Both the position numbers and the translations under genes were made by a program. DNA of 64,000 bases, taken from positions 719,501-783,500 of the forward strand of contig NZ_KN525716.1 of the NCBI RefSeq assembly GCF_000789235.1. The letters are read 5' to 3'. Position 1 is the stretch's first letter; each line of letters opens with the position of its first letter. This stretch comes from Wocania ichthyoenteri Th78. GTDB taxonomy: Bacteria > Bacteroidota > Bacteroidia > Flavobacteriales > Flavobacteriaceae. The notes beneath the pieces were generated by a model. It worked only from the letters and a program-made list of their open reading frames with translations. It was not told the DNA's origin and ran no database searches. This document shows, piece by piece, positions 31,300-63,659 of this stretch.

Positions 31300-31519
31300 C
31301 ATTAATATTTTTATTAAAGAAAAATATGTATATGTAATGGAAAATATTTATAACTATATTAATTATCTTTGAATTTTGAATGCAATTGCATTCAATTAAG
31401 TTCATTTAATTTTTAAGATACAACAAGGTGCGTTAATCGGTGCCTATATTTGTTAAACGTATATTAACTTTTTGAATATCAGCTATTTAAAATAAGTGTT
31501 CGAGCCCCAGCCCGGTCAC
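31300..31519 (+). repeat. Direct repeat module, copy A (candidate attachment site)
   Basis: About 220 bp that reappears at 63426-63658 with only scattered differences. From left to right it holds an AT-rich stretch, a 20-bp perfect palindrome TTGAATGCAATTGCATTCAA (31376-31395), the motif GGTGCGTTAATCGGTGCC (31427-31444) with two GGTGC units 12 bp apart, and a terminal core TTCGAGCCCCAGCCCGGTC ending at 31519. The core reads like the T-loop, T-stem 3' half and acceptor 3' strand of a tRNA, without the rest of the tRNA, as expected at one end of an element integrated by a tyrosine recombinase. Confidence 0.7.
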
Positions 31520-31531
31520 TTAAAATCAACT

Positions 31532-31566
31532 AAAAAGCCCCAAAACGTATGTTTATGGGCTTTTTT
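31532..31566 (+). terminator. Intrinsic terminator after repeat copy A
   Basis: AAAAAGCCC, a 16-base loop and GGGCTTTTTT directly follow the tRNA-3'-like core of copy A. A different hairpin sequence follows copy C at the same position, which fits the idea that the core is the 3' end of a tRNA gene with its terminator. Confidence 0.7.
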
Positions 31567-31600
31567 CATTTTAATTAATATCAATTATTAGCAGTAAATA

Positions 31601-31645
31601 GGTGCGTTAATCGGTGCGTCTTTTTTAAAATAAAAACACGCACCG
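31601..31645. repeat. Extra GGTGC-motif copy with inverted arms
   Basis: GGTGCGTTAATCGGTGC occurs again at 31601-31617, identical to the motif in copies A and C. Here the second half, CGGTGCGT (31612-31619), also pairs with ACGCACCG (31638-31645) across an AT-rich 18-bp loop. There is no tRNA-like core after it. It may be an additional recombinase arm site or the remnant of another copy. Confidence 0.5.
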
Positions 31646-31753
31646 AATAGAACTTAAAACTCTAATTTATAAGTATTTACAACTAAAATTTAATATATAT
31701 CATTTCGCAGTATCTCAAAGATCAATCAATATATTTACACTAATTAATAATTA

Positions 31754-31841
31754 CTAGTGTAATATTTACTCTTGACGTTGTAACGAGGGTAATATTTTAG
31801 TATATTTACCTTTGTTAAAGAAACGAGTGTAATTTTTACTC
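31754..31841 (+). promoter_or_regulatory. Three iterated operator-like repeats upstream of fic
   Basis: Three related 18-bp units start at 31754 (CTAGTGTAATATTTACTC), 31784 (CGAGGGTAATATTTTAGT) and 31824 (CGAGTGTAATTTTTACTC). Units 1 and 3 are imperfect palindromes GAGTgTAA...TTACTC. The start-to-start spacing is 30 and 40 bp, whole multiples of about ten, so the sites lie on the same DNA face. The last unit ends 9 bp before the fic ATG, a position where a bound protein would block expression. Confidence 0.6.
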
Positions 31842-31850
31842 CTGTTAATC

Positions 31851-32936: not shown

Positions 32937-32944
32937 TATTGGCT

Positions 32945-33037
32945 AAGGTGCGTGAATCGGTGCCTATATTTGTGAAGTACGTTTTATACTTTTGAATATC
33001 AATTGTTTAAAAAATAGGTTCGAACCCTGCCCAACCC
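32945..33037 (+). repeat. Direct repeat module, copy B (short, diverged)
   Basis: Starting 9 bp after the fic stop, this 93-bp copy matches the right half of copies A and C: AAGGTGCGTGAATCGGTGCC, TATATTTGTGAA, TTTTGAATATCAATTGTTTAAAA and a diverged tRNA-like core TTCGAACCCTGCCCAACCCG. It lacks the upstream palindrome found in A and C and has no terminator after it. It separates the Fic block from the alginate block. Confidence 0.65.
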
Positions 33038-33123
33038 GAAGTCAAAACCTTTCTAATTTTATTACCCATACTGATTAATCAATAAATTGTTTTTATCGCA
33101 AGAAGAAATAAAATGAATTAGTA

Positions 33124-33792
33124 TTACAAAAGTATTCCTTTAATAATATCTATAGTCTTTTTGACATCTTGTTCTAGCTTATCATAGTCTCTATTGGCTA
33201 TAATGTCTTTAGATATTAATTTAGACCCCATCCCAACACATGTAACACCAGCATCAAACCAACCTTTTAAATTCTCTTCTGTTGGCGATACACCTCCTGT
33301 TGGCATAATACTTGTCCATGGCTGTGGCCCTTTTATTCCTTTTACAAATTTTGGTCCGTATAAATCTCCTGGAAATAGTTTTACTATTTCACAACCTAAC
33401 TCTTCGGCTCTTGCTATTTCTGTTAAACTACCACACCCAGGTGACCAAAGTACTTTACGTCGGTTGCAAACTATAGCTATATCTTCTCTTAAAACTGGAG
33501 TGACAATAAAATTTGCGCCTAATGCCATATATAAAGACGCTGCTGCTCCATCAGTCACAGAACCTACACCCATAATCATTCCTGGTAATTCAGTTATGGC
33601 ATATTTTGTTAACGCACCAAAAACCTCATAAGCGAAATCGCCTCGGGCAGTAAACTCCATTAATCGTGCTCCACCATCATAACAGGCTTTAAGCACATTT
33701 TTACTCAGTTCAATATCATTACTGAAAAACAAAGGAATCATACCTGTTTCTTTCATTCTCTGTGCTACTTCTATTCTTGTAAATTGTGCCAT
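33124..33792 (-). CDS. kdgA: 2-keto-3-deoxy-6-phosphogluconate (KDPG) aldolase
   Basis: A 222-residue class I aldolase of the KDPG/KHG family: MGVGSVTDGAAASLYMALGANFIVTP, SPGCGSLTEIARAEELGCEIVKLFPGD with the Schiff-base Lys in EIVKLFP, and SIMPTGGVSPTEENL. It splits KDPG to pyruvate and glyceraldehyde 3-phosphate, the last dedicated step of alginate monomer breakdown. It is the final gene of the minus-strand operon MFS-SDR-KdgK-PFK-KdgA. Confidence 0.93.
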   Translation of the reverse strand: MAQFTRIEVAQRMKETGMIPLFFSNDIELSKNVLKACYDGGARLMEFTARGDFAYEVFGALTKYAITELPGMIMGVGSVTDGAAASLYMALGANFIVTPVLREDIAIVCNRRKVLWSPGCGSLTEIARAEELGCEIVKLFPGDLYGPKFVKGIKGPQPWTSIMPTGGVSPTEENLKGWFDAGVTCVGMGSKLISKDIIANRDYDKLEQDVKKTIDIIKGILL

Positions 33793-33809
33793 TATCTGTT
33801 AGTTATTTT

Positions 33810-35027
33810 TTAATTCCAATTTAATATGTCACGAAAATTATAATTCTCTGGGTTGTTGATATAATCCTTTGCAGCATCATAATCTTGTTCTTCTATATAA
33901 AAAAGATTGTTCATAAATAATTGTGCCATATCTGATTCTATATCTACAAGTCGAGGAGGAACCTTACCATTCTCATCTTCAAAATCTTTAAGGTATAATG
34001 GTGTGATATCTCCATTTGAATTTGCACTAACAATACAGCCAGTTTCTCCTTGTGCGAAAAGTTTTTTTACACCAATTGCTAGCAAAGTACAAAGTGTAAT
34101 ATCGAAAGCGATTGGGTTACAACAACGCAATTCATAACCTATTTCTACAGGACGTGTCTTAATATTAATATCCAATTCCTTTAACTTTAACTGAAGCAGG
34201 TAATTAAAAATATGTGATTTATTTACATTTCCTAATTCAGGATGTCCATGATCATCATAGGTAAAGTTAATACCTGAGTTTTTAATTTCTTCTTCATCCA
34301 TAAAATGAAACACTCCTTCGCTAACTAAAGCCACACCGTAATTAATATTTTGAATTTTACTTTTAATTATTGAGGAAATTATTAGATTAATCAATTTATC
34401 AAAAGTAATTTTCGTTTTATTAAACATTTCAGGGATAATCATCATAGGGAAGTGACATGCCGAAGCGATGCCAAAGGCTAGATGACCAGCAGAACGTCCC
34501 ATCGTTGAAATGACAAACCAATTTTCACTAGTTCTGGCATCTTCATAAATCGTATTACCTATTCGAACTCCTTCATTTTTTGCAGTATGGAAACCAAACG
34601 TTGGGTTTCTATCTGGCAAGGGTAAATCATTATCTATCGTCTTAGGGACGTGAATATGAGAAATCTCAACATCGCTTTTTAATAAAAACTTTGTTAACCT
34701 ATTGGCGGTAGACGCTGTATCATCACCACCAATGGTAACTAATAATTTAACATTTTGTTTTTTGAAAAAGTCAGACTTAAAACTGGAGTCTTTAGGTTTA
34801 AATCGACTCATAATAAGTGTGGAACCGCCTCTGCTAAAAATTCTGTCTGCATGAGCAAAATCAAATTCTTTAATTTCAGGCGCTTCTGAAAACAATCCTT
34901 TGTAACCATAATGTACACCTAAAACTCTAAAATCATCTTTAAGAAAAGTTTTAGCAAGTGTACTAATAACGGCGTTAATACCAGGTGCTGGTCCTCCGCC
35001 ACAAATAATTACTATTGATTTTTTCAT
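33810..35027 (-). CDS. 6-phosphofructokinase family protein, probably PPi-dependent
   Basis: A 405-residue PFK-family protein. ICGGGPAPGINAVIST opens the first Rossmann-like domain; the catalytic PKTIDNDLP (128-136) and MGRSAGHLAFG are present. The nucleotide-site motif is GGDD (100-103) rather than the GGDG of ATP enzymes, and with the Lys of PKTIDND this is the pattern of pyrophosphate-dependent, reversible PFKs. It is encoded between kdgK and kdgA with short gaps (18 and 54 bp), so it is part of the alginate catabolic operon. It could move triose phosphate carbon in either direction; the direction in vivo is not known. Confidence 0.85.
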   Translation of the reverse strand: MKKSIVIICGGGPAPGINAVISTLAKTFLKDDFRVLGVHYGYKGLFSEAPEIKEFDFAHADRIFSRGGSTLIMSRFKPKDSSFKSDFFKKQNVKLLVTIGGDDTASTANRLTKFLLKSDVEISHIHVPKTIDNDLPLPDRNPTFGFHTAKNEGVRIGNTIYEDARTSENWFVISTMGRSAGHLAFGIASACHFPMMIIPEMFNKTKITFDKLINLIISSIIKSKIQNINYGVALVSEGVFHFMDEEEIKNSGINFTYDDHGHPELGNVNKSHIFNYLLQLKLKELDINIKTRPVEIGYELRCCNPIAFDITLCTLLAIGVKKLFAQGETGCIVSANSNGDITPLYLKDFEDENGKVPPRLVDIESDMAQLFMNNLFYIEEQDYDAAKDYINNPENYNFRDILNWN

Positions 35028-35081
35028 ATTAAAAAAGATGCAACCAATAATGAATTAGGTTATTATCTTCTGATATTGAAT

Positions 35082-36122
35082 TTAACGTGCTACTCTTCCA
35101 GAAGCATCGCCTCCCATTAATTTTTCTACTTCTGCAACTGTTACCAAATTAGCATCGCCTTTAATGGTGTGCTTTAAACATGAAGCAGCTACTGCAAAAT
35201 CTAAAGCGTTTTGGTCATTTTCTGGATATTTTAATAATCCATATATTAAACCTCCCATAAATGAATCGCCTCCACCTACTCTATCAACAATATCTGTTAT
35301 TTGATATTGTCGAGTTTCATACATTTTTTTACCGTCGTATAAAACACCTGCCCATGTATTATGAGATGCCGAAATAGAACCTCTTAATGTTGTTATTACT
35401 TTTTTAGCCCTTGGGAATTTTTTCATCATTTGCTTACAAACTGATAAAAAAGCTTCAGCCTTTACGTCGTGTCCTTGAGTAGTAATATCTAATCCTTCTG
35501 GTTTAATTTCGAAATGTTTTTCTGCGTCTTCTTCATTTCCTAAAATAACATCACAGTATGATGTTAACTCAGTCATAATTGCTTCGCGATCTCCACCGTA
35601 TTGCCATAGTTTTGCACGGTAATTTAAATCGGTAGAAATAGTAATACCTTTATCACTTGCAGCTTTTACAGCTTCTAGACAAACATCTGCAGCTCCTTGT
35701 GAAATGGCTGGTGTAATTCCCGTCCAATGAAACCATTCTACACCTTCAAAAATAACATCCCAATCTATCATTCCAGATTCTATTTCTGCAATGGCAGAAT
35801 GCGCTCTATCGTAAACTACTTTACTCCCTCTAGAAACTGCTCCAGTTTCTAAAAAATAAATTCCTAAACGGTCACCTCCATAAACAATTTTATCTACACC
35901 AACACCGCGTTTGCGCATTTCCATCATAGCACATTCACCTATGTCATTTTTAGGTAAACGTGTAACAAAATCTACCGAAACTCCGTAATTTGCTAATGAA
36001 ACGGCTACATTCGATTCTCCTCCACCATAAATAGCATCGAAATTATTGGCTTGTGAAAATCTTAAAAATCCTTGTGGAGCTAATCGCAACATGATTTCTC
36101 CAAATGTGACTACTTTACTCAT
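35082..36122 (-). CDS. kdgK: 2-keto-3-deoxygluconate kinase (PfkB family)
   Basis: A 346-residue ribokinase-family sugar kinase with GGGESNVAVSLANYG near the N-terminus and the catalytic VDRVGGGDSFMGGLIYGLL near the C-terminus. It phosphorylates 2-keto-3-deoxy-D-gluconate to KDPG with ATP. Its neighbours (SDR reductase before it, KDPG aldolase after it) define the pathway step clearly. Confidence 0.92.
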   Translation of the reverse strand: MSKVVTFGEIMLRLAPQGFLRFSQANNFDAIYGGGESNVAVSLANYGVSVDFVTRLPKNDIGECAMMEMRKRGVGVDKIVYGGDRLGIYFLETGAVSRGSKVVYDRAHSAIAEIESGMIDWDVIFEGVEWFHWTGITPAISQGAADVCLEAVKAASDKGITISTDLNYRAKLWQYGGDREAIMTELTSYCDVILGNEEDAEKHFEIKPEGLDITTQGHDVKAEAFLSVCKQMMKKFPRAKKVITTLRGSISASHNTWAGVLYDGKKMYETRQYQITDIVDRVGGGDSFMGGLIYGLLKYPENDQNALDFAVAASCLKHTIKGDANLVTVAEVEKLMGGDASGRVAR

Positions 36123-36150
36123 TATCTATAAAAATTTCTAGTAATTAATT

Positions 36151-36915
36151 TTATATTCCCAAAGCTTGCCCACCGCCAATTTGGATAGTTTCTGCAGTTA
36201 AGAAAGCTGAATCATTACTTGCCAAGAATGAAACAACAGATGCTACATCTTCTGGTTGCCCTAATCTTCCTAACATAATATTGTTTGCCCAAGAAGCAAA
36301 TACGTCTGGTTTAGTTGCTTTAATTTGTGCATGGAATGGTGTATCTATCGTACCAGGTGATACCGCATTTACTCTAATTCCATATTCAGCTAAATCTTTT
36401 GCTAATGCTCTGGTTATTGCATGAACACCAGCCTTAGATGTTCCATAGATTCCTGCTCCAGGTCCTCCTGCTGTCCATCCTGCGTTTGATGTATAGTTAA
36501 TTATTGTAGCGTTTTCTCCTTTTTTAAGGAAAGGTATAGCAGCTCTAGAAGCAAAAAAGACTGAATCTAGATTTAAAGCCATTACAAATCTGTAAAAATC
36601 GGTTGTCATTTCTTCAAACCGAGACCGACCACCTAATCCACCAGCATTATTTACAAGAACATCAATTCTCCCGTACTTTTCACCAATTTTTGTGATGTTT
36701 GCAGTTACTTCTTCTTCTTTTGTAACATCGAATCCGTAATATTCTGCAGTAATGCCTTCTTTAGCAAGCTCTTCAACTCTTTTAGCTCCTGCTTCATCTT
36801 CGATACCATTTAATACAACAGTGTATCCATCTTTACCCAATCTTTTTGCTACAGCAAAACCAATTCCACCTGTAGCTCCAGTAATAATTGCTATTTTTCC
36901 GTTTATATTGCTCAT
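36151..36915 (-). CDS. SDR family DEH (4-deoxy-L-erythro-5-hexoseulose uronate) reductase
   Basis: A 254-residue classical short-chain dehydrogenase: TGATGGIGFAVAKRLG cofactor motif, NNAGGLGG, catalytic Ser/Tyr/Lys in INYTSNAGW and YGTSKAGV, and a C-terminal FLTAETIQIGGGQALGI. In alginate loci this enzyme reduces DEH, the open-chain product made by KdgF, to 2-keto-3-deoxygluconate. It is 28 bp from kdgK. A second SDR is encoded at 49989-50759, so assignment of DEH reduction to this one rests on its kdgK/kdgA context. Confidence 0.85.
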   Translation of the reverse strand: MSNINGKIAIITGATGGIGFAVAKRLGKDGYTVVLNGIEDEAGAKRVEELAKEGITAEYYGFDVTKEEEVTANITKIGEKYGRIDVLVNNAGGLGGRSRFEEMTTDFYRFVMALNLDSVFFASRAAIPFLKKGENATIINYTSNAGWTAGGPGAGIYGTSKAGVHAITRALAKDLAEYGIRVNAVSPGTIDTPFHAQIKATKPDVFASWANNIMLGRLGQPEDVASVVSFLASNDSAFLTAETIQIGGGQALGI

Positions 36916-36957
36916 CTTTTAATATTGTATTTTATTATGTTATATAATTTTTATCTT

Positions 36958-38241
36958 TTAATTTTTTGTGTTTACTACTAATTTTACTTTTTTGATTAAA
37001 AAGAAAATGGATAATACAGCTAGAACTACAGACAGAGTAATAGCTATGAATGCAGGCGTATATGATCCTCCTTTAGTTATACTACCAATAAACCAGTTCA
37101 TTATAATAGGTGAAAATGCAGCTACAGTCCCAGCTAATCCTGCTAATGTACCTACTGATGGTCCTCTAAATAAATCGCTTGATAAAGTTTGAATATTACC
37201 TATGGCAAATTGAAATCCAAAAAGTGCTAACCCTGCTAGATAAATGAATGTCATATAATTAGAATCATTTACAAATAATATAATAGAAACAAAGCCAATT
37301 ATTATTAAAATACTTCCTAACACTATACTTGCTTTCCTTCCAAAATCTACAGAAGTACGTTTTATTATTGCTTCCGTAAATAAGCCTCCTAATATTCCTC
37401 CAGCAGCAGCCATGAGATAAGAGATCCACATTGTTTTTCCTATTTCTTCTATACTTAGTCCAAATTTCGAATTCAGATAGATTGGCATCCAACCCGCAAA
37501 AAACCACCAAATAGGCTCTATGAAAAACCTACATAATAAAACTCCCCAAGGTTGTTTATAACTCAATATTTCGCCAACACCCAAACTTTTAGCGCCTTCA
37601 ACAGCAATATCATTATTTTCTATTCGATCATTAAGTATCAAGTTTCTTTCGTCTTCAGTAATCCAAGGATGATTTTCTGGTTTTGATTTGTTTAAGATTA
37701 GCCAAGGAATAATCCAAAGTAATCCTAATCCACCTAATATTATGTAGGTAGACTTCCATCCAAATTGAGCATATAGAAAAACTATAATAACAGGAGCTAT
37801 TACATTACCTATAGAAGCACCCGAGTTAAAAATCCCTTGTGCTAACGCTCTTTGTTTTACAGGAAACCATTCTCCATTACTTTTTACGGCACCAGGCCAT
37901 AATCCTGCTTCTCCTAGTCCAAGTAAACCACGTACTATTGACAATGAAATTATTCCTCTTGCTACTGCATGAAAAGCTGCAGCTGCTGACCATACTACAA
38001 TAGATACAACAAAACCAATTCTAGTACCGATTTTATCGTACAATCTTCCAGATAAAAATTTACTTGCAGCATACGTTATCATAAAAACATTAAGCATTAA
38101 TGCATAATCAGAATTATCCATGCCAAGATCTTCACCCATTTGTGGCCATAATAATGCAAAAGCAGTTCTATCTATATAATTTATAACGGTTGCTATAAAA
38201 ATTAATATAATAATCCACCAACGTATGCCTTTGATTTTCAT
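36958..38241 (-). CDS. MFS transporter (ACS/hexuronate type)
   Basis: About 427 residues from the ATG at 38241, with 12 membrane segments. The family motif between helices 2 and 3 is FLSGRLYDKIGTRIGF, and the first helix has INYIDRTAFALLWPQMG as in ExuT/GudP-like anion:cation symporters. It should carry alginate monomers or short unsaturated oligomers such as DEH across the inner membrane. It is the first gene of the operon with SDR, kdgK, PFK and kdgA, and has an unusual structured leader (38300-38395). Confidence 0.9.
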   Translation of the reverse strand: MKIKGIRWWIIILIFIATVINYIDRTAFALLWPQMGEDLGMDNSDYALMLNVFMITYAASKFLSGRLYDKIGTRIGFVVSIVVWSAAAAFHAVARGIISLSIVRGLLGLGEAGLWPGAVKSNGEWFPVKQRALAQGIFNSGASIGNVIAPVIIVFLYAQFGWKSTYIILGGLGLLWIIPWLILNKSKPENHPWITEDERNLILNDRIENNDIAVEGAKSLGVGEILSYKQPWGVLLCRFFIEPIWWFFAGWMPIYLNSKFGLSIEEIGKTMWISYLMAAAGGILGGLFTEAIIKRTSVDFGRKASIVLGSILIIIGFVSIILFVNDSNYMTFIYLAGLALFGFQFAIGNIQTLSSDLFRGPSVGTLAGLAGTVAAFSPIIMNWFIGSITKGGSYTPAFIAITLSVVLAVLSIFFLIKKVKLVVNTKN

Positions 38242-38299
38242 AGTTTTAAATTTAAACGTTAGCATTCTACATAATTATTTAAATTATATACTAGAATGT

Positions 38300-38395
38300 A
38301 AAAACTTGTTTAGCTCATTAATTGCTAAACTTTAAATGTGAAGAAATGCTTTTATTGATTTCTTCCCTCCTAATCTTTTTATTTTGAAAAATAAA
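38300..38395 (-). promoter_or_regulatory. Structured leader of the MFS-kdgA operon
   Basis: Read on the minus strand, this 5' region has TTAGGAGGGAAG, then a perfect 8-bp stem GAAGAAAT/ATTTCTTC with a 10-base loop (38341-38366), then a second stem GTTTAGC/GCTAAAC (38308-38330). The purine-rich element and both stem types have counterparts in the susC leader (46717-47006). AGGAGG is far from the start codon and is not the ribosome site of the MFS gene. A shared regulatory RNA element is likely. Confidence 0.45.
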
Positions 38396-38429
38396 ATCGT
38401 GCAACTCTATTTTTCAATTATTTTTATTT

Positions 38430-39128
38430 CTAACTGTAGCAGTATTGATATAATACACTAAAATGATCTTTCATTTTTTCTTTTGCCAAATCAGTTTTTT
38501 GCGCCTTAATGGCTTCATAAATTTCTGTGTGCTCCTTTATGCCTTTTACTGCTTGGTTTTTATCGCAAACATGGTACTTTTCAAAATCTATAATTATTTG
38601 AGGTGTTATTGTTAGCATGAATGTATTCATGGTACTATTTCTACTTGCTTTTGCTATAGCTAAATGAAATAGTAAATCTTCTTGTACTGCATCTTCTCCT
38701 AATAACGCTTTTGCTTCGTATGCATCTAACGTTTCTTTAATACGTATTAAATCATCTTCATTACGTCTTAACGCTGCCAATCGAACTGTTTTCAATTCTA
38801 GCAAAATTCTTGTTTCTACTAGTGATTTAAAATCTGGTGATTCTAATCTTAAAATATCTTCAATCATTCCATTCATAGCAACAACTCCAATATTTGCTAC
38901 AAATGTTCCGCTTTGCGGAATAGACTTTAATAATCCATAAAATTCTAATTTTTGAATCGCATCACGAACATTGCTTCTACTAACTTCAAATTTATCAGAC
39001 AGCATACGCTCTGATGGTAATTTGTCGCCAGGTTCTAAGTTTTTATAATTAATTAAATCTCTAATCTTAGCGATTATAGTATTTTGAGTTTCTCGATTGT
39101 CGCTTATTGTAAGTACCTCTAACTTCAT
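38430..39128 (-). CDS. GntR/FadR family transcriptional regulator of the alginate locus
   Basis: A 232-residue protein with an N-terminal winged helix (PGDKLPSERMLSDKFEVSRS, NVRDAIQKLEFYGLLKS, GTFVANIG) and an all-helical FCD effector domain (about 85-230; metal-site type residues in DLLFHLAIAKAS and IKEHTEIYEAI). Family members that sense uronates, such as UxuR and ExuR, bind ATTGGTnnACCAAT-like palindromes. Boxes of that form occur upstream of this gene and of four other promoters in the locus, so it is the likely repressor, relieved by a pathway intermediate such as KDG or KDPG. The effector is inference. Confidence 0.9.
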   Translation of the reverse strand: MKLEVLTISDNRETQNTIIAKIRDLINYKNLEPGDKLPSERMLSDKFEVSRSNVRDAIQKLEFYGLLKSIPQSGTFVANIGVVAMNGMIEDILRLESPDFKSLVETRILLELKTVRLAALRRNEDDLIRIKETLDAYEAKALLGEDAVQEDLLFHLAIAKASRNSTMNTFMLTITPQIIIDFEKYHVCDKNQAVKGIKEHTEIYEAIKAQKTDLAKEKMKDHFSVLYQYCYS

Positions 39129-39159
39129 ATATTCTATTTATTTACTAGCCCCTCTTTAA

Positions 39160-39171
39160 CTGGTTAACCAG
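39160..39171. promoter_or_regulatory. Single GntR box upstream of the regulator gene
   Basis: CTGGTTAACCAG is a perfect 12-bp palindrome 32 bp before the regulator start codon. It is the single-unit version of the TGGTnnACCA boxes found at the other promoters of the locus, and implies autoregulation. Confidence 0.75.
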
Positions 39172-39249
39172 AAATTATTGTTCAATTTAAAAAAACTTAT
39201 GATTCTAAACTATTCTACTTATGATTTTAAATTGATTTTTATCAAATTA

Positions 39250-40170: not shown

Positions 40171-40177
40171 TTTTGGC

Positions 40178-41095: not shown

Positions 41096-41105
41096 GTTTA
41101 TCAAT

Positions 41106-42119: not shown

Positions 42120-42146
42120 GTTTACTTTTTTTAAAGTTATAATCTA

Positions 42147-43574: not shown

Positions 43575-43605
43575 AATATTTATATTATTTATTAAATGCA
43601 TCTCC

Positions 43606-47060: not shown

Positions 47061-47082
47061 TTAATTTCTAATTTTAACATCT

Positions 47083-47231: not shown

Positions 47232-47243
47232 CAGATTTTTTTC

Positions 47244-47618: not shown

Positions 47619-47636
47619 AATTTTAATTGTTTTGTT

Positions 47637-49898: not shown

Positions 49899-49920
49899 AC
49901 TTATTGTTTATAAGTTTAAA

Positions 49921-49950
49921 TTGGTTAACCAATCTGGTAAACCAAATATA
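49921..49950 (-). promoter_or_regulatory. PL17-kdgF promoter with two GntR boxes
   Basis: TGGTTAACCA (49922-49931) and TGGTAAACCA (49935-49944) have centres 13 bp apart, as at susC, and the outer box runs into TATATTTG on the minus strand (49943-49950). The -33 element is less clear here. The site is 23 bp before the lyase start codon. Confidence 0.75.
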
Positions 49951-49988
49951 CAATAATCATTTAACTATGAAAAATTAATTAAAAAAAA

Positions 49989-50759: not shown

Positions 50760-50775
50760 ATTGTTTCTAAGTTAA

Positions 50776-51840: not shown

Positions 51841-51883
51841 TTTTTTATTGTTTTGTTTCATTTTTTTTGATCTCAATTAATTA

Positions 51884-53158: not shown

Positions 53159-53175
53159 AATACTAATTGTTAGTT

Positions 53176-55059: not shown

Positions 55060-55071
55060 TGCTTTTTTGTT

Positions 55072-56100
55072 TTATTGATTGGGTATTGTATTTTCTCCCA
55101 CGGTTGCTTCTTTAAACCAAACTTCTGCATAACTTCCGTTTGCATATTGCTTTGCGATATCGCCACCATAAATTTCTGATTTAGTAGATTTCCCATTAGC
55201 TTGATTATAAGCCCCTTGTTTAAAATATTGTATTTCGCCAGCATAGGCCATTTCACGTTCAACTCCACCACCTTTATCTCTATTTGCGTACACTTTTAAA
55301 ACTTGCTCAGGAATATCTTCTCTAGATGCAAATTCTGATTTTATCAAACTTTTTGTAAACTGAACTGTTTTATGATTTTTATTAGTAAAAGTTAAATACA
55401 TAATACCATTGTAAACATTTACTTCATAACTAAACTCTTCACCTAAGGCAATACCATCCTCTGGTTCTTTTGGGTATTCCGTTGGACTTGAACCAACATC
55501 AGAAAAATTATAACCCCAAACTGCAGTTGAATAATCAAATCTTCCAATATTATCACCTTTGGTATTGATTTCGTAATTCCAAAACACAGAGCCTTTTGTA
55601 TGACCTGGGAACTTTTTATAGAAGATTTTTAACGGTTCATTTTCATGCCCTTCATCACTGTGAATTTGACCAACGACTACTGAATGTGAAGAGGAAACCC
55701 TTGCATCACCAGTTGTTGATACATGCTGAACTTTTAAAGTACCCGTTAATTTTCCGCCTTCTTCTGGAATCCAATGTTTTTTTTCTCCTAATTCTGTTCT
55801 GGTGTTACTTGATGTTCTTGAAGTAATACCAGAATTTGGTGTTTTATAAACTACCCAATCTGTATTGCCATCATTTTCAACATAAAAAAAGTCATCCTTT
55901 TGGAAATTAACTAAACTATCACAATATGTGCCATCACCTAAAAGGATTTTCCATTTATCCATAAATGGAATAACATCGCTTGGGTATTTAACCTGTTCTT
56001 TTATTTCGTTTTTTTTAAATGCCTTTGATTCTATTTTTGAATTGTTTTTACATGAAAAAACTATAAAAACTGGGACTATAATGATTAGTGATTTTTTCAT
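55072..56100 (-). CDS. PL7 alginate lyase lipoprotein (second type, copy 2)
   Basis: A 342-residue lipoprotein (VFIVFSC, Cys17). PL7 motifs are NTRTELGE, VVGQIHSD and QYFKQGAYNQ. It is a close paralogue of the lyase at 50776-51840: both share GDARVSSSHSVV-like and FYKKFPGHTKGSVFW-like segments. It lies 12 bp upstream of the fusion gene. The two copies flank the fusion and Nramp-like genes, which suggests that those two genes were inserted between, or duplicated along with, the lyases. Confidence 0.88.
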   Translation of the reverse strand: MKKSLIIIVPVFIVFSCKNNSKIESKAFKKNEIKEQVKYPSDVIPFMDKWKILLGDGTYCDSLVNFQKDDFFYVENDGNTDWVVYKTPNSGITSRTSSNTRTELGEKKHWIPEEGGKLTGTLKVQHVSTTGDARVSSSHSVVVGQIHSDEGHENEPLKIFYKKFPGHTKGSVFWNYEINTKGDNIGRFDYSTAVWGYNFSDVGSSPTEYPKEPEDGIALGEEFSYEVNVYNGIMYLTFTNKNHKTVQFTKSLIKSEFASREDIPEQVLKVYANRDKGGGVEREMAYAGEIQYFKQGAYNQANGKSTKSEIYGGDIAKQYANGSYAEVWFKEATVGENTIPNQ

Positions 56101-56129
56101 TTTAAGGGTTTATATTACTATTTATAAGG

Positions 56130-56147
56130 TTCCTGCCAGCGCAGGAA
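56130..56147. repeat. Short GC-richer hairpin between PL6 and PL7 genes
   Basis: TTCCTGC-CAGC-GCAGGAA is a perfect 7-bp inverted repeat in the 52-bp gap between the PL7 start and the PL6 stop. No U-tract follows on the coding strand. It resembles short palindromic intergenic repeats and may serve as an mRNA processing or stability element within the operon. Confidence 0.45.
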
Positions 56148-56151
56148 TAAA

Positions 56152-58479
56152 TTAATACATCAATGTCATTACTAAGTTTTCTTCCGTCTTAATTTGTCCT
56201 GAATTGATGATTGTATTATCAGATTCTACATTATTTTTTGCTCCCCAAAGAATAGAAACAAACTTCACTTTATTGTTTTTAAATGTGTTATTGTTAATAT
56301 TTACATTTACAATTCCATTATGATTTAGTAATCTTTTATTTTTCTCTTTTGCACCACAATTAATAAACGTACTATTTGTTACTAATAGGTTTCCACCAAT
56401 AGTAGATTCGTCATAGCCGCCTCTGTAATAATCAATAACATTTGCTTTTACATTATTGAAGTTACAGTTGTTTATAGTTAAATATTCTGTATTATAATCT
56501 CCTTTATCATTTATTTCTTCAGATAGTTCTATACCATTCTCACAGTTAGAAATTGAAGTGTTTTCAAAAGTAATACTTTCTGCAAACGATTCTTTATAGC
56601 CTTTTAATACATAGTTAAAATCGCTTATTTCAGAACCAGAAACTGTTAAACCAAAGTGATTAGACATGTTTTCTTTTAAACTTGCAAATGCATAGTTTGA
56701 ATTGTTCCCTTTTAAGATTATATTATTTACTATTATTTTTCCTTTAGGCTGTAATGAAAATAGAGGTGTGTTAGCTTCTCCAGAATAAACAAGTTGTGCT
56801 TTTGTTTCTCCTTTAGATTGAATAATAAGTGTTTTATTAATTACCAAAGATGTATCTAAACTGTAAACACCTTTAGCTAAAGCAATAACATCTCCATTAT
56901 GTGCTTCATTTATTTTGGTTTGTATTTCCGAAACATTGGTAACATTATGTATTACAGGGTCTTTAACTTTTGCTTCGTTAGAAAACCAAGTAGTGCCATA
57001 TTTGGACTTATCCAAAATATTTGGATTGGAAACATCAACTCCTACAACTGCACCAATACTTTTACTATTCTTCCTAGATGTACCGAATAAATCGTTTTCA
57101 ATAGTGTTAAAACCGAAACCATTATAAGCTTCAACTTCGCTAGGAATTCCGATTGGAAGCATAATATTATCTGATACTTCCTTCAATTCTAAAGATGCTT
57201 CAACAATACCTCCATCAAAACCCTTAAACTTAACCCCCTTGTTATCTACTATATTGTTTTTAAAAGTGACTCCATCTGCTTTATCATTTTCAATAACTAT
57301 ATTTTCATTTCCTTTTTCATTGTACACAATATTATTAGCGACTGTAGTTCTAATGGCTCTTGCTGAACGAATTTCAGATTTTGGTAATACATCTGCTTGC
57401 GCAATATTTGTTCCTACACCAAATTGCCAAGGCGAACTACAATTTACATACGTATTATAGGCAACAACAACGTCAGTAACTTGATTGTAACGATTTAATG
57501 GTGATTTTGGAATTCCATTCATTACTGCCAATGGACTTCTGAAACTTTTCCCTTTTAAATTAAAGAAGTAGTTGTTGGTTACCCAATGCCCCGTATTAAT
57601 AATACGAATTCCTCCATAATTTTCGTTTACACCATCACCTATAAAATAATTCCCGTCAATAGTCACATAATTTCCATGTCGAGTAACTAAAGAACCTTCA
57701 CTTTTATAAAACACATTGTTTCTAAACTCATTAAAGTTTGTTTTACTAGAAATTATCTCAACCTCACCATTACACTCTTCGAACAAATTATTAGCAACCA
57801 AAGTATGGCTTGGTGACATTGATGTATAACTATCCCCCAATTGAATGGTTTCACCACTAGGACCTCCTTTTACAGGTCTTGGTCCAAAATGATTATTTAC
57901 AATTTGATGATAATTATTAATACTTTCAATACCTGCTATATTAATTCTTACAGTTGGTCCTCTATTTGTTTTCCCAGCTATATAACAATTGCTTAACTCA
58001 TTGTGTCTTCCCCAGAAATTTACCCATAAATCACTTTTATCTCGTTTTGGTTTATTGAAATCTTCGATAACACAATTAGTTAATTTACAGTTATTAGCTA
58101 TTTCATCTAATGTATCTTTATGGCTTATTTTAAAATCAACTACAGCATTGGTTGGCGAATAACCATTTTTGAAATATAATCCTTCAGCAACCAAATATTC
58201 ACCTCCGAATTTTAAATACGATTTACCCTCAATGCTAACTTTACCGGCTGTTTCAGCTTTTAGGGTTATTGGGTTATCTTTGGTTCCCTTACCTCTAAAT
58301 TTAATTTCAACATCTTTCCAAATACCATTTGCTAATACAATTAGATCTCCTTCTTTACTGTTTTTAATTGCGTCGTTCAGTTCTTCAATATTAGCTACTT
58401 TAATTTCGCTTGTTTGTGTTTGTTGATTACAAGCCATTAATAAAACAACTAAGCTTAAGGCGAATATGGTTTTCTTCAT
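56152..58479 (-). CDS. PL6 alginate lyase lipoprotein
   Basis: About 775 residues from the ATG at 58479, giving the lipoprotein signal MKKTIFALSLVVLLMAC. It is a chondroitinase-B-like right-handed beta-helix: VANIEELNDAIKNSKEGDLI at the start, then catalytic Lys in EIISSKTNFNEFRNN and Arg in SLVTRHGNYVTIDGNYF. A second parallel beta-helix domain covers about residues 500-775, as in long two-domain PL6 enzymes. It opens the operon PL6-PL7-fusion-Nramp-PL7-SDR. No GntR box is visible in the 180 bp before it. Confidence 0.9.
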   Translation of the reverse strand: MKKTIFALSLVVLLMACNQQTQTSEIKVANIEELNDAIKNSKEGDLIVLANGIWKDVEIKFRGKGTKDNPITLKAETAGKVSIEGKSYLKFGGEYLVAEGLYFKNGYSPTNAVVDFKISHKDTLDEIANNCKLTNCVIEDFNKPKRDKSDLWVNFWGRHNELSNCYIAGKTNRGPTVRINIAGIESINNYHQIVNNHFGPRPVKGGPSGETIQLGDSYTSMSPSHTLVANNLFEECNGEVEIISSKTNFNEFRNNVFYKSEGSLVTRHGNYVTIDGNYFIGDGVNENYGGIRIINTGHWVTNNYFFNLKGKSFRSPLAVMNGIPKSPLNRYNQVTDVVVAYNTYVNCSSPWQFGVGTNIAQADVLPKSEIRSARAIRTTVANNIVYNEKGNENIVIENDKADGVTFKNNIVDNKGVKFKGFDGGIVEASLELKEVSDNIMLPIGIPSEVEAYNGFGFNTIENDLFGTSRKNSKSIGAVVGVDVSNPNILDKSKYGTTWFSNEAKVKDPVIHNVTNVSEIQTKINEAHNGDVIALAKGVYSLDTSLVINKTLIIQSKGETKAQLVYSGEANTPLFSLQPKGKIIVNNIILKGNNSNYAFASLKENMSNHFGLTVSGSEISDFNYVLKGYKESFAESITFENTSISNCENGIELSEEINDKGDYNTEYLTINNCNFNNVKANVIDYYRGGYDESTIGGNLLVTNSTFINCGAKEKNKRLLNHNGIVNVNINNNTFKNNKVKFVSILWGAKNNVESDNTIINSGQIKTEENLVMTLMY

Positions 58480-58614
58480 GTGTTTATTTATTATGTATAC
58501 AAAATTACTTGTAGTCATTTATGTTTTTCTATAAATTTATATATAACTCTTTAAATAGTTAATCTTTTATAAAACACTTTTAAAACTTCATTCGATTATT
58601 CAGGTATTTAAAAA

Positions 58615-58637
58615 AGCCTTTTAATAATTAAAAGGCT
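58615..58637 (-). terminator. Intrinsic terminator of the lamin-tail gene
   Basis: AGCCTTTTAA, loop TTA, TTAAAAGGCT followed by TTTTTT on the minus strand: a 10-bp perfect stem and U-tract 26 bp after the stop of the gene at 58663-59736. Confidence 0.85.
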
Positions 58638-58662
58638 CTTAAATCAATCAAACTAATTCTAA

Positions 58663-59736
58663 TCACTCAATTACTATTTTTTTAACTAGACTACTATTAT
58701 CAGTATTTACTTTTAAAAGATAAATACCAATACTTAAATCTGATACATCCAATCTATTATTAACTAAATTATTTTCAGAAATTACTTTTTTACCAATAAG
58801 GCTATACATTTCTACAGAAGAAACTTTTACAATTTTTGATTCTATAGTTATAATATCTTTTACTGGATTTGGATAAATTTTAAAGTTTGAAGCTAAAACA
58901 TCTTCAGTTGATAAAGTAGTATTTTGAGACGGATTAGCAGAACCTATATGATTTAATTCTGAACCAGCAAAGCTATTAGGGGTGCTTCGATTAGTTGTAG
59001 AGCTTAATACCCAATTTGGCACATTTCCTGACGGAATATCTCCACCAACCCAGTCTGATGTTGACTCATCATTTGTTACAACAGACCCTGTTGAATTTCC
59101 TATTCTAGCTGCATAATCGTATTGGGTTGTTGTTTGTATAACTGTTGCTCCAGCTGGAAACTTTAAAGTTCCTGTTGTTACTATAGCGTCTTCGGCAAAT
59201 ATAACATTGGCATAAGCAAACTCATCATGTGGTAAAGTACCGTCATCATCAGCAAATGAAATACCATCTAAAACTGTCCAACCAGCATAAACCGCCCCAT
59301 CAGGTGTTCCGTCATCATCACTATCTATATCATCACTACTTGAAGGAGCCGTTGCAGACTGAATTAACAAATAAGTATGTGTTTGATCTTCTAAATTACC
59401 ATCATTTAAATCTAAAACAACTGTTGCATCTGGGTCAACGGTATAAGGGTGGCCTGTTGCTAAAAGCACTAAATACCCATTTGATCCTAATGTCAATCCT
59501 GATAAATCCATGATATCAAATTCAATATCACCTGGACTATTACCGTCATCACCATCTCCATCAATTCCAACTAAATATGTTCCTGCTCCAATTGTCGCAT
59601 TTGCAGCACCCCGAATTTCAATATATTCGTTTGGAGCATCAGTCCCTGGAGGGCTTATAAAGATTTCATTTATATAAAGTTGAGCGCTAACTAATTGGCT
59701 AGCAAACAATAAAGTAAAAAGTAATTTTGTTTTCAT
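58663..59736 (-). CDS. Lamin-tail-domain protein with T9SS sorting domain
   Basis: A 357-residue secreted protein: signal peptide (FASQLVSAQ), an LTD-like beta domain starting LYINEIFISPPGTDAPNEYIE, and a C-terminal type A sorting domain (KIYPNPVKDIITIES ... GIYLLKVNTDNSSLVKK). Aspartate-rich stretches (DGDGDDGNSPGD, DDIDSDDDGTPD) suggest calcium binding. No catalytic motif is seen. It is alone in its transcript with a three-box promoter (59800-59844), as strongly marked as that of the PL6 gene next to it, so it is part of the alginate response. Function unknown. Confidence 0.75.
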   Translation of the reverse strand: MKTKLLFTLLFASQLVSAQLYINEIFISPPGTDAPNEYIEIRGAANATIGAGTYLVGIDGDGDDGNSPGDIEFDIMDLSGLTLGSNGYLVLLATGHPYTVDPDATVVLDLNDGNLEDQTHTYLLIQSATAPSSSDDIDSDDDGTPDGAVYAGWTVLDGISFADDDGTLPHDEFAYANVIFAEDAIVTTGTLKFPAGATVIQTTTQYDYAARIGNSTGSVVTNDESTSDWVGGDIPSGNVPNWVLSSTTNRSTPNSFAGSELNHIGSANPSQNTTLSTEDVLASNFKIYPNPVKDIITIESKIVKVSSVEMYSLIGKKVISENNLVNNRLDVSDLSIGIYLLKVNTDNSSLVKKIVIE

Positions 59737-59799
59737 AATTTATTTTATAAAAATTAATATTAATTTTTATAACAAATGGCAGGAAAAAGTAGATTTATA

Positions 59800-59844
59800 T
59801 TGGAAAACCAAATTGGTTTACCAGATTGGTTTTCCAAATATATA
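59800..59844 (-). promoter_or_regulatory. Three-box GntR operator at the lamin-tail gene
   Basis: TGGAAAACCA (59801-59810), TGGTTTACCA (59814-59823) and TGGTTTTCCA (59827-59836) repeat at an exact 13-bp period; the outer two are reverse complements of one another, making the whole site symmetric. The outer box joins TATATTTG on the minus strand. Confidence 0.75.
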
Positions 59845-59938
59845 TATTTATTAATCAAATTATTTTAACATAAAGCTTTAAAACAGATTATTAAATTTCT
59901 CAGTTGACCCTATATACTCATAATAATCTGATAATCAA

Positions 59939-62539
59939 TTAATGGGAAACAATAAGCATTTTAGAACTATTTACACGACTATCGCTAGAAAAATTAATAA
60001 TATATGTTCCGTTTGAAATTAATGATGTGTCTATTTCCGTAGAAGTAGAATTAATTGCTTTCTCAATAATTTTTCTACCATCCAGACTATAAATTTGCAT
60101 AGTCTTGATTACATTATTTAAACTTTTAACATGTAATATATTTTTTGCTGGCATTGGATAAAGCACAATTTTGTTTTCTTGATTCACTTCATCTACAGAT
60201 AAGCTTGAAGATCCATAAAATTCAATTTCACCAACTGCACTCCAAACACTTGTTCTAGTATCCCCAGTACTATTAAATCTTCCGTACCCCATTAATTTAA
60301 CATAACGTGCATTTACGTCTGCAGTAATTTCATATTGATTAAAATCAGTTGTGCTAGTAGCCGTTAATAACAAATCCCCAGAAGTTGGTAACACCATTGT
60401 AAAATCTAAGGGGTCCGTTCCGGTTGTTGAAACCAAAACCTGGAAACCAAAAGCATCTGATTTATTTGTGGTGCTAAACTGTACTAAATCAAGACTATGT
60501 GTACTACCTAAATCATAAATAATATATTCTCCATCACCTTTAACACCGTCTACCACGGTACCATCATCTGCAGCCCAAACTGTACCATTATCTTTATCTA
60601 AAGTATTTGATGCATAATTAGTTTTACCACCTCCAACTTCTTCTTTTGAAAACGAATGAATTGTTACTGGATCTCCAGCTAAACCAGTATTAATAAGGTC
60701 ATAAATATCTGTTAAATCTGCACCTTCTTGCGTAACAGTTAAAGTTCTTACAATATCATCGCCTCCTGGATCTTGAGTAAAAGTTACCATACCTACTCTA
60801 CTACTTGTATTCACATTTTCTGTAACTGTAACCGAAACTGTTGCATTATCAGTACCCGAATTAGTATCAATAGATATCCATGCATCGTTAGATACTGCAG
60901 TCCAACTTACATTTGCATTAACTGAAACATCATAGCTAGCAGCAACTGAAGTAAGCGTTGACAGACTACTAACTGTTAAAGATTCTGGTATTACAATATT
61001 ACAATCACCATCATTTATATTAGCGCCTAAATTATCTAAAAAACAAGCTCCAATTCCGTAACCAACCATAGCATCAGTTGTTGGTGCATAAACACCCATA
61101 TCGGCACCTTTACCTACAGATCCTGTTCCTGAAAAAGTAATAATCTCATCCGAAGCAGTAGCCATAATTCCTGTCTCTTCAGCAAACCCTGCGTTTGTTT
61201 CACCCAAAGTAGTTCCTGTATAAACGTTTCCAGTATAAGTTAATGCTGTACCCATATCTGCATACGAAGTAGGCGTATCACCCGAAATAACGTCTGATAA
61301 ATTTGGATCAGCAGCAGCAAAATAAATTAAGTTATTCGAAACTGTTCCTGTTGGATCGGTAGACCCTTTATCCGTATTATAAAACAAAGGCGCATTCGTA
61401 TTTACAATCGAGTTATTAGAAATAGTAATATTTTCAGATTTTTGATAGCCGTTTGAAGTACCTGTAGCAGTACAAGTAACAGCAGCATTATCACCTCCTC
61501 CTATAAATGTTATACCATTATTCCATTTAGCTTGACTGTTTACGGTAATACAATCTTGAATATAATTATTAGTAATTGTATGGTTACTATCCGTAATTCT
61601 AATCCCTCCGGTACCATCAACGTCTTCTCCTAAAAAGTAATTTCCATCTACTGTAGCGCCAGAACCATGACGTAGAACTAAAGAGCCTCTACATCTTCTA
61701 AAAGTGTTATTCGTAAATATATTGTTTTTGCTTTTATTAGTGATGATTTCATTCTCTCCATCAGACTCAACGAAATAATTATTACTAACCGTAACATTGC
61801 TATTTACATTTTGATATTCACTAGTACCAATACGAATCGTTTCACTATCTCCAGAATTACTTAGCGTGTTATCAATTTTCTCATATCTATAGAAATAATT
61901 GTTGCTAATTGTATGACCAACTGTTGCACATCGATTGTCTTCAGCATTGTATTGATATTCTGCTAAAATCAAAGCACCTGCACTTACTTTATTCATGAAA
62001 GAACAATTAATTACAGTATTGTAAGTTCCGTAAAGCACAATCCACCTGTGTTTTGTGATAGAGCCATTCGCTATATCATCAGCCACGTCATCTGGATCTA
62101 TTGCTAAGCCACCAATAGCACAATTTTGAATGGTACTATAATTAGCATAATCAGTGCCATTTCTGAATTGAATAAAATTGCTAGCTCCATAACCACCATC
62201 CCAATGAAAACCATCAACAACAACGTAATCACCACCAATATTCATTTGTAAACCACCGTTAAAAACAACGCCCCCCGGTGTTTCTGCTCTAAATACAATT
62301 GGATGGCCTGCTGTTCCATTACCAATAAAGTCTATGCGCTCATCAGTACTGTAAGTACCATTTGCCAATATAATTTCATCTCCTGGGCCATAAGTCTGAT
62401 CCTCTAATGCTTCAGGATCTGAAATATTATAAGTGGTTTGAGAAAACACATTATAATTACTGAAAAGAATTAATGTAAAAATGCAACTTCTAAATAAAAT
62501 CCCGCTTATTAAAGAACATAAGGTTTGAGCAATTTTCAT
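59939..62539 (-). CDS. PL6 alginate lyase with BACON, F5/8-type C and T9SS domains
   Basis: An 866-residue secreted enzyme. After a signal peptide comes the PL6 beta-helix (about 35-510) with catalytic Lys and Arg in EIITNKSKNNIFTNN and SLVLRHGSGATVDGNYF. A BACON domain follows (about 525-610; VNANVSWTAVSNDAWISID, GMVTFTQDPGG), then an F5/8 type C (discoidin-like) binding domain (about 625-770) and a type A T9SS sorting domain (VLYPMPAKNILHVKS ... GTYIINFSSDSR). It should attack alginate outside the cell or on the surface. It has a three-box promoter shared with the divergent RraA-like gene. Confidence 0.9.
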   Translation of the reverse strand: MKIAQTLCSLISGILFRSCIFTLILFSNYNVFSQTTYNISDPEALEDQTYGPGDEIILANGTYSTDERIDFIGNGTAGHPIVFRAETPGGVVFNGGLQMNIGGDYVVVDGFHWDGGYGASNFIQFRNGTDYANYSTIQNCAIGGLAIDPDDVADDIANGSITKHRWIVLYGTYNTVINCSFMNKVSAGALILAEYQYNAEDNRCATVGHTISNNYFYRYEKIDNTLSNSGDSETIRIGTSEYQNVNSNVTVSNNYFVESDGENEIITNKSKNNIFTNNTFRRCRGSLVLRHGSGATVDGNYFLGEDVDGTGGIRITDSNHTITNNYIQDCITVNSQAKWNNGITFIGGGDNAAVTCTATGTSNGYQKSENITISNNSIVNTNAPLFYNTDKGSTDPTGTVSNNLIYFAAADPNLSDVISGDTPTSYADMGTALTYTGNVYTGTTLGETNAGFAEETGIMATASDEIITFSGTGSVGKGADMGVYAPTTDAMVGYGIGACFLDNLGANINDGDCNIVIPESLTVSSLSTLTSVAASYDVSVNANVSWTAVSNDAWISIDTNSGTDNATVSVTVTENVNTSSRVGMVTFTQDPGGDDIVRTLTVTQEGADLTDIYDLINTGLAGDPVTIHSFSKEEVGGGKTNYASNTLDKDNGTVWAADDGTVVDGVKGDGEYIIYDLGSTHSLDLVQFSTTNKSDAFGFQVLVSTTGTDPLDFTMVLPTSGDLLLTATSTTDFNQYEITADVNARYVKLMGYGRFNSTGDTRTSVWSAVGEIEFYGSSSLSVDEVNQENKIVLYPMPAKNILHVKSLNNVIKTMQIYSLDGRKIIEKAINSTSTEIDTSLISNGTYIINFSSDSRVNSSKMLIVSH

Positions 62540-62600
62540 TTTAGTTTAATTAAGTTAATTTTTGAAACAATTTCGCAGGTTAATTATAAATGAGTATTTT

Positions 62601-62645
62601 TGGAAAACCAAATTGGTTAACCAGATTGGTTTTCCAAATATAAAT
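62601..62645. promoter_or_regulatory. Three-box GntR operator between PL6 and the RraA-like gene
   Basis: TGGAAAACCA (62602-62611), TGGTTAACCA (62615-62624) and TGGTTTTCCA (62628-62637) at a 13-bp period, with TATATTTG joining on the minus strand. The site lies between two divergent genes, 62 bp from the PL6 start and 55 bp from the RraA-like start, and could control both. Confidence 0.75.
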
Positions 62646-62692
62646 ATATTTTGGTGCTTTACAAATAATTTTAATTAAAAACACTTAACGTC

Positions 62693-63397
62693 GTGAATAA
62701 GCTATCTAAGAAATTAAGAGAAAATCTAAAAAAGATAAGCACTGCAACTATAGCTACATGCTTATATAAAAAAGGGCTAAGAAATCAATTTATTCAAGAT
62801 GTATTCCCTCTTAGTGCTTTAAAAGAAAATATGGTAGGAGAAGCTTTTACGTTAAGATATATTCCTGCACGAGAAGATTTAAACCCTATCACTGTATTTA
62901 AAGATCCTAAACATCCACAAAGAGTTGCTATTGAAACTTGCCCTGAAGGAGCTGTTTTAGTTATGGACAGCAGAAAAGATGCAAGAGCAGCATCAGCCGG
63001 TTCTATTTTAGTTACGCGCTTAATGAAACGAGGTGCAACAGGAATAGTAACCGATGGTGGTTTTAGAGACTCTGAAGAAATTGCTAATCTTAACTTTCAC
63101 TCTTATCATCAAAGACCATCGGCTCCAACAAATCTTACGCTACATCAAGCTATAGACATTAATTCTCCTATAGGATGTGGAGATGTAGCAGTATTTCCTG
63201 GTGATATCATTGTAGGAGATAAAGATGGTGTCATAGTTATTCCTTTTAATATAGCTGAAGAAGTAGCTATTGAATGTGAAGCAATGACACGCTTTGAAGA
63301 TTTTGTGTTAGAGCAAGTAAATAAAGGGCAATCTATATTAGGACTGTATCCACCAACAGACAAGCAAACTTTAGTTGACTTTGAGAAGTGGAAGTAA
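62693..63397 (+). CDS. RraA-family (HMG/CHA aldolase-fold) protein
   Basis: A 234-residue protein starting at a GTG codon (no usable ATG nearby). The RraA fold is shown by STATIATCLYKKG, GEAFTLRYIPA, ATGIVTDGGFRDSEEI with the conserved Arg-Asp, and GCGDVAVFPGDIIVGDKDGVIVIP. The family contains class II pyruvate aldolases for 4-carboxy-4-hydroxy-2-oxoadipate as well as the RNase E regulator RraA. The conserved G-x-R-D site is compatible with a divalent-metal aldolase or decarboxylase acting on a 2-keto acid. It is divergent from the PL6 gene and shares its operator, so a part in uronate metabolism is likely but unproved. Confidence 0.82.
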   Translation: MNKLSKKLRENLKKISTATIATCLYKKGLRNQFIQDVFPLSALKENMVGEAFTLRYIPAREDLNPITVFKDPKHPQRVAIETCPEGAVLVMDSRKDARAASAGSILVTRLMKRGATGIVTDGGFRDSEEIANLNFHSYHQRPSAPTNLTLHQAIDINSPIGCGDVAVFPGDIIVGDKDGVIVIPFNIAEEVAIECEAMTRFEDFVLEQVNKGQSILGLYPPTDKQTLVDFEKWK

Positions 63398-63425
63398 AAG
63401 ATTCAGGTTCTTACAGCTATTTCCC

Positions 63426-63658
63426 CATTAATATTTTTATTTTAATTGATTAAAAACGTGAATATGCATTAGAAAAATATTTATAAGTACCTCAACATTA
63501 ACTATCTTTGGGTTTTGAATGCAATTGCATTCATTTAAGTTCATTTAATTTTTAAAATACAATAAGGTGCGTTAATCGGTGCCTATATGTGTTAAACACA
63601 CATTAACTTTTTGAATATCAACTGTTTAAAATAGTAATTCGAGCCCCAGCCCGGTCAC
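63426..63658 (+). repeat. Direct repeat module, copy C (candidate attachment site)
   Basis: The same module as copy A: AT-rich start CATTAATATTTTTATT, palindrome TGAATGCAATTGCATTCA (63516-63533), GGTGCGTTAATCGGTGCC (63566-63583), TTTTTGAATATCAACTGTTTAAAAT, and a tRNA-3'-like core identical to that of copy A. Together with copy B it encloses the complete alginate locus. Confidence 0.7.
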
Positions 63659-63659
63659 A

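Follow-up and report, generated by a model that had tools for sequence, protein, structure and literature searches.

A probable accretion array of integrase-less units at tRNA-Lys in the genome of Wocania ichthyoenteri Th78

Spread of polysaccharide loci among the Bacteroidota is generally assumed, and how several of them come to be collected in one genome is less clear. In Bacteroides such loci are carried on conjugative elements, and whole degradation loci are moved between species by integrative elements. The loci of Th78 described here differ in lying in stacked integrase-less units beside a conjugative element and not inside one. For this one site a concrete and testable answer can be offered: a defined tRNA target, defined arms and units, and candidate integrases in relatives.

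The closest described systems are streptococcal, namely CIMEs (cis-mobilizable elements), which are integrase-less elements located between attachment sites, and the accretion of ICEs, IMEs and CIMEs, which stack one behind another at the 3' end of the gene they target, with tRNA-Lys among the targets reported there (PMC5704250, PMC7563491). The part of this work that deals with the S. salivarius survey gives classical CIMEs of 1.2-13 kb and composites of two or three elements (PMC5704250, PMC7563491). The Th78 units share with them the lack of an integrase, the attachment sites and the tandem stacking at the 3' end of tRNA-Lys; they differ in reaching 30-69 kb, in forming five stretches, in their polysaccharide cargo and in their Bacteroidota host. 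The accretion process is already known from streptococci, and the size, cargo and site appear to be new. In the open-licence literature, judged by title and with most subscription papers outside it, no such arrays were found described in Flavobacteria. The present array extends CIME accretion, treated in these sources mainly for streptococci, to a host in the Bacteroidota, with units several times as large. Tyrosine-integrase ICEs and IMEs of Bacteroidota that target tRNA genes are represented in the same source by NBU1, NBU2 and MTnPi4 (PMC5704250). Compared by description, these have in common with an ICE of a same-genus relative (G003, below) the tyrosine integrase, the tRNA 3' end as target and an integrase gene at one end, and differ from the Th78 units, which have no integrase.

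The window is a stretch of 64,000 nucleotides, C1:719501-783500 of the 3.95-Mb genome. The sequence-only reading had described three copies of one module (A, B and C) in one orientation, each ending in a tRNA-3'-like core. The repeats proved to be real: A (31358-31519) and C (63497-63658) were 90% identical across 162 nt, and an 84-nt part of B (32944-33027) had 76% identity to A and 79% to C. The 18-base box AGGTGCGTNAATCGGTGC had four exact matches in the window, all on the + strand, when only 0.01 matches with up to 3 mismatches would be expected; four were reached in 0 of 100 shuffles. The fourth match, at 31600, was absent from the earlier list of copies; it precedes the Fic gene, within the left arm of that gene's block. 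Copies A and C terminate in TTCGAGCCCCAGCCCGGTCAC, the exact last 21 bases of tRNA-Lys. The description of the cores thus stands fully for these two copies and partly for B, where the core is a degenerate version, TTCGAACCCTGCCCAAC. A tRNA search of the window found none. Across the whole genome, TTCGAGCCCCAGCCCGGTCAC occurred at three sites: A, C and C1:680879, the 3' end of a tRNA-Lys(TTT) gene. A tRNA gene with the same 3' end, which the earlier note had proposed to look for, was found 38.6 kb left of the window (tRNA-Lys(UUU), anticodon TTT, C1:680826-680899). The features of the window are collected in Table 1.

Table 1. Features of the window (positions are those of the 64,000-nucleotide stretch unless C1 or another contig is given).
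Feature	Position	Strand	Basis
Right part of the 68.6-kb unit (C1:682415-751000), polysaccharide-related cargo; left part beyond the window	1..31282		Pfam scan, 44/45 ORFs
Right attachment arm A, with TGAATGCAATTGCATTCA palindrome, box 31426-31443 and TTTTTGAATATCA	31283..31498	+	Homology to C arm; alignment of 14 right arms
Core A, last 21 bases of tRNA-Lys	31499..31519	+	Genome search
Left arm of Fic unit, with terminator-like stem 31532-31566 (read by eye), box 31600-31617 and inverted partner	31520..31650	+	Alignment of 11 left arms; identical sequence directly behind tRNA-Lys
Fic gene, SoFic-like protein adenylyltransferase family, 361 aa	31851..32936	+	Pfam Fic_N, Fic, SoFic-like_C
Right arm B of Fic unit	32944..33018	+	Alignment of 14 right arms
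Degenerate core B, where identity of the two Fic units stops	33019..33035	+	
Alginate-locus unit	33036..63408		33138-63393 homologous to G002:C9:95762-123021
Right attachment arm C	63409..63637	+	Alignment of 14 right arms
Core C, last 21 bases of tRNA-Lys	63638..63658	+	Genome search
Remnant left arm of next unit (C1:783158 to tRNA-Leu)	63659..63736	+	92% over 78 nt to left arm of G003 ICE
Part of DDE transposase ORF (C1:783335-784213)	63835..64000	-	Occupies place of box and integrase in G003

The window is only the middle of a larger structure, the whole stack having about five times the length first read. The distance from tRNA-Lys(UUU) to tRNA-Leu(GAG) is 167 kb, which five tRNA-like cores (that of tRNA-Lys itself counted) split into stretches of 1.5, 68.6, 1.5, 30.6 and 64.9 kb, the last running from C to tRNA-Leu. 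A search of the genome with the module at E<=0.001 gave seven matches, A counted, all in C1:680878-848033. The copies beyond the window were a second B (C1:682325), a truncated right arm within the 68.6-kb stretch (C1:714932-715039) and a coreless right arm immediately 5' of tRNA-Leu(GAG) (C1:847939). In an integrative element the module corresponds to the right arm plus core, and a complete unit has in addition an unlike left arm. B is a junction in degenerate form. Neither copy of B had a left arm visible behind it, so the block between B and C showed none at its left end. The degenerate B core, these missing left arms, the truncated arm at C1:714932 and the coreless arm by tRNA-Leu indicate that the array is partly decayed or rearranged. 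Elsewhere on C1, two stretches of at least 2.2 kb each (C1:876544-878715 and C1:880829-883000) were 99.8% identical, the second running up to the limit of the DNA compared.

The same tRNA gap was compared in Th78, G021, G002, G036 and G003; the contig of G001 stops soon behind tRNA-Lys. The gap measured 56 bp in G021 (another genus), where the module is absent, and 3.8 kb in G002 (same genus), where it holds one 1196-codon ORF and no module was found. It reached 38.8 kb in G036 (another genus) and 173 kb in G003 (same genus), the content of the latter being largely unlike that of Th78. The outer flanks of the gap match among Th78, G002, G003 and G036, and in G036 and G150 tRNA-Leu stands no more than 60 bp beyond the far core, a spacing resembling that of G021. 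These comparisons bear out the link drawn in the sequence-only reading between the module and variable gene content, the gap being 56 bp or 3.8 kb without the module and 38.8, 167 or 173 kb when filled. They also support its proposal of serial integration at a single tRNA 3' end, since the cores match tRNA-Lys and the relatives have both uninterrupted and filled sites.

Arms of the same kind were found in several genera, from which 14 right arms could be aligned up to the core. Eleven aligned left arms had a stem-like stretch in common and most had a box ~100 bp behind the core, which is missing behind C and altered at one G003 site. A sequence model of the right arm matched at least 25 of 397 family genomes at E<=1e-4, a lower bound set by strict filters, in which the training sites match by construction. 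It gave seven matches in G352, five each in Th78 and G003, four in G232 and three in G374, and no match in the same-genus G001 and G002. Weak matches to the model (~25-32 bits) may be left arms or chance; those at G003 868739, G020 1272878 and G403 17437 stand at left-arm positions. Tandem junctions were also seen outside Th78. Two cores of G232 each directly abut a left arm, one of which resembles the left arm of the Th78 Fic unit, and a further arm lies 57 bp 5' of tRNA-Leu. G003 has a second left arm and core ~230 bp before its Fic unit, resembling a unit without genes. Behind C of Th78, 78 nt of ICE-type left arm are followed by a DDE transposase gene, at the place of the box and integrase of G003.

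The three large stretches of Th78 contain polysaccharide-related genes, and the small ones a single Fic gene flanked by one left arm and one right arm. As the sequence-only reading had it, the Fic gene is alone between A and B, where it is the sole ORF of at least 100 aa, and the block between B and C is an alginate locus: 4 of its 22 ORFs match Alginate_lyase2, and a SusD protein and a TonB plug-domain receptor are also present among the Pfam families listed. Two TonB plug-domain proteins, two sulfatases and glycoside hydrolases were among the families listed for the 68.6-kb unit (44 of 45 ORFs scanned), and two plug-domain proteins, one sulfatase and glycoside hydrolases among those for the 64.9-kb unit (35 of 38). 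No conjugation genes were among the 25 families listed for each large unit (of 112, 40 and 79 matched in all). The blocks of G003 other than its ICE are probably polysaccharide loci as well, judging by their matches to Th78 genes.

Homology of the alginate locus to G002 begins shortly after B and ends shortly ahead of C, with two gaps at ~33816-35074 (~1.3 kb) and ~59884-62576 (~2.7 kb), the second of which contains an 866-codon Chondroitinase_B-type gene. The two long matches form an identity mosaic of 65 to 97%. One lyase of the unit was 79% identical to that of G019 (another genus) versus 63% to the G002 version, and a lyase match was obtained in 11 of 60 genomes, Th78 counted. The G002 locus (L165 and L167, on G002:C9) is on a different contig from the G002 tRNA-Lys, in a stretch terminating at tRNA-Met(CAT). 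Th78 DNA matched the right flank of this locus well only from tRNA-Met(CAT) onward (C1:2757449-2758233, 91%), and the left flank gave weak matches in many places. The ORFs beside the G002 locus start like ORFs of the G003 tRNA-Lys array. A 53-nt repeat with TTGGTTTACCA-like palindromes precedes genes of the Th78 locus at 46995-47047, 59800-59852 and 62600-62652, and is perhaps a binding site of the locus's GntR/FCD-type regulator.

The Fic protein had solved SoFic structures as its top matches. A second Fic block lies outside the window, immediately 3' of tRNA-Lys (C1:680878-682415), and differs from window positions 31498-33035 at 2 of 1538 bases; the identity of the two blocks stops at the tRNA-like cores on both sides. 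Small elements of 7.8 kb in G062 and 14.0 kb in G020 have the order tRNA-Lys, integrase, other genes, Fic, right arm, core, with one extra ORF between Fic and right arm in G020. Loss of the interval from left arm to Fic in such an element may have given rise to the Fic unit. Of 121 four-fold sites, 105 and 106 (87%) are identical between the Fic genes of Th78 and G003, versus 43-72% in 14 of 15 pairs of flanking core genes and 26 of 29 sites in the remaining pair. This implies either that the Fic units moved between the lineages after divergence or that they are under unusual constraint. Within the array, the remaining gene pairs of Th78 and G003 mostly showed lower agreement than the core genes, so the cargo is not all recent.

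The earlier observation that the blocks contain no recombinase gene was upheld, as PF00589 (tyrosine recombinase) had no match between C1:628816 and C1:1157920 and PF00239 (serine recombinase) had none in the whole genome; a serine recombinase as the mover was dropped on the latter result. A relic of the G003 integrase was not found in C1:640001-883000 (best E 0.84). The closest homologue of this integrase in Th78 has 54% identity and is located at tRNA-Leu(CAA), and no integrase of the G003-type clade was found in the genome. As far as these searches reach, Th78 no longer contains the source of the integrase by which the Fic units were placed.

In G003, an open tyrosine integrase gene (P0001) with arm-binding, SAM-like and Phage_integrase domains lies 234 bp behind tRNA-Lys. 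It opens a 47-kb element with RteC, TraG and TraM domains (39 of 41 ORFs scanned) and a right arm at its end, near 821.6 kb. This element is an ICE with its own integrase. Homologues of P0001 were present at E<=1e-40 in 133 of 299 family genomes. At the 20 integrase sites examined, mostly from the top of the list of these 133, a tRNA gene was just upstream in 19 cases and none in the other; 4 were tRNA-Lys (G232, G062, G020, G129), 13 tRNA-Ser and 2 tRNA-Leu. The integrase is shortened to 240 codons in G036, split into two pieces in G232 and interrupted by an in-frame TAA in G129. In Th78 itself (G000), two integrase matches were repeated with equal scores on a second contig (G000:C1:3828782-3830168 and G000:C2:3686-5072), perhaps from a duplicated or circular element.

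Taken together, the DNA between tRNA-Lys(UUU) and tRNA-Leu(GAG) is probably an array formed by accretion of integrative elements that belong to a single attachment family, and is composed of integrase-less, CIME-like islands. The resemblance to CIMEs follows from the lack of an integrase in every unit, where an ICE or IME would have its own. The units also lie between attachment sites: the right arms and cores at A and C, and the left arms at tRNA-Lys, at A and partially at C, align with those of integrase-bearing elements, B being degenerate. By definition a CIME would further be free of conjugation genes, descend from an ICE or IME through decay and move along with such an element inserted next to it; the ICE-type arm remnant behind C and the shortened and split integrases of G036 and G232 may be traces of such decay. 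An integrase would recombine the 3' end of tRNA-Lys with the core of an element, the left side of which would rebuild the tRNA end and contribute the terminator-like stem, while the right arm and a copy of the core would be placed at the far side. The intact core would then be reusable, so that units could stack head to tail by repeated site-specific integration, the integrases being lost afterwards. The Th78 units would need an integrase from an incoming relative, such as the ICE of G003. Its action on them in trans, as the earlier note had suggested, is plausible because the arms are common to the integrase-bearing relatives. Counter to this reading stand the decayed junctions, the lack of an integrase source in Th78 and the small share of Fic loci (7 of 63) with an arm or core behind the gene. 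We infer three parts of this model: the identity of the serving integrase, the movement in trans and the order of events.

Alternatively, the copies could be relics of one or two old insertions, with the order of blocks set mainly by homologous recombination between similar arms (~160-320 nt) and no recent site-specific step. Such exchange typically leaves mosaics like that of the alginate locus (65-97% against G002), and it would fit the 90% identity of arms A and C over 162 nt, the decay of arms at several places and the absence of an integrase. We regard it as unlikely, since identity of the Fic units stops on the left at the core, the stretch common to tRNA-Lys and arm A there being just ~22 bases long, since core-to-left-arm junctions recur in other genera, and since relatives have integrases at the same tRNA.

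In integrons, which have folded single-strand sites of the attC type, a row of co-oriented units is separated by copies of one recombination site, and the Th78 units, likewise co-oriented between copies of one site and without a recombinase of their own, had been compared by the sequence-only reading to a large-scale cassette array. That comparison is an analogy, CIME accretion being the nearest known process. An integron-like array with very large cassettes is highly improbable here: no integron integrase and no other tyrosine recombinase match was found in or near the array, complete relatives have their own integrase, each unit has two unlike arms, the target is a tRNA 3' end, and the units are far above the usual cassette size. 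Least credible of all is that the module marks no mobile units and is a repeat dispersed in the genome or a copy of a tRNA promoter region, although a right arm stands directly 5' of tRNA-Leu and some right arms have promoter-like spacing. The seven of seven genome matches in C1:680878-848033 speak against the common dispersed repeat that the earlier note had named as a counter-case, the arm model has no match in the same-genus G001 and G002, and integrase-bearing elements have the module at their far end; in the genomes examined it was confined to the ends of elements. The G021 tRNA-Lys/tRNA-Leu pair is without it, for which reason a duplicated promoter was dropped.

If serial accretion is accepted, a wider and more speculative role for the site can be considered. 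The tRNA-Lys/tRNA-Leu gap might be a docking site in marine Flavobacteriaceae that stores 30-70-kb polysaccharide loci as integrase-less units with common arms. The integrase of a visiting element might pick up and drop units singly or jointly, so that whole diets would be exchanged between species, and the 1.5-kb Fic unit would be a minimal non-autonomous passenger.

Fic genes are not restricted to these elements, as a right arm or core lies within 1.4 kb behind Fic in only 7 of 63 Fic loci (L071, L104-L108 and L127, with L071, L104 and L106 identical to the records G003, G020 and G062), and Fic was dropped as a marker of the element family. A tRNA-Ser(TGA) gene was found within 5 kb behind Fic in 5 of the 63 loci (L079, L081, L082, L094 and L095). 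L095 has a P0001-family integrase between Fic and tRNA-Ser(TGA), and such Fic genes may frequently be carried at the ends of elements that target tRNA genes.
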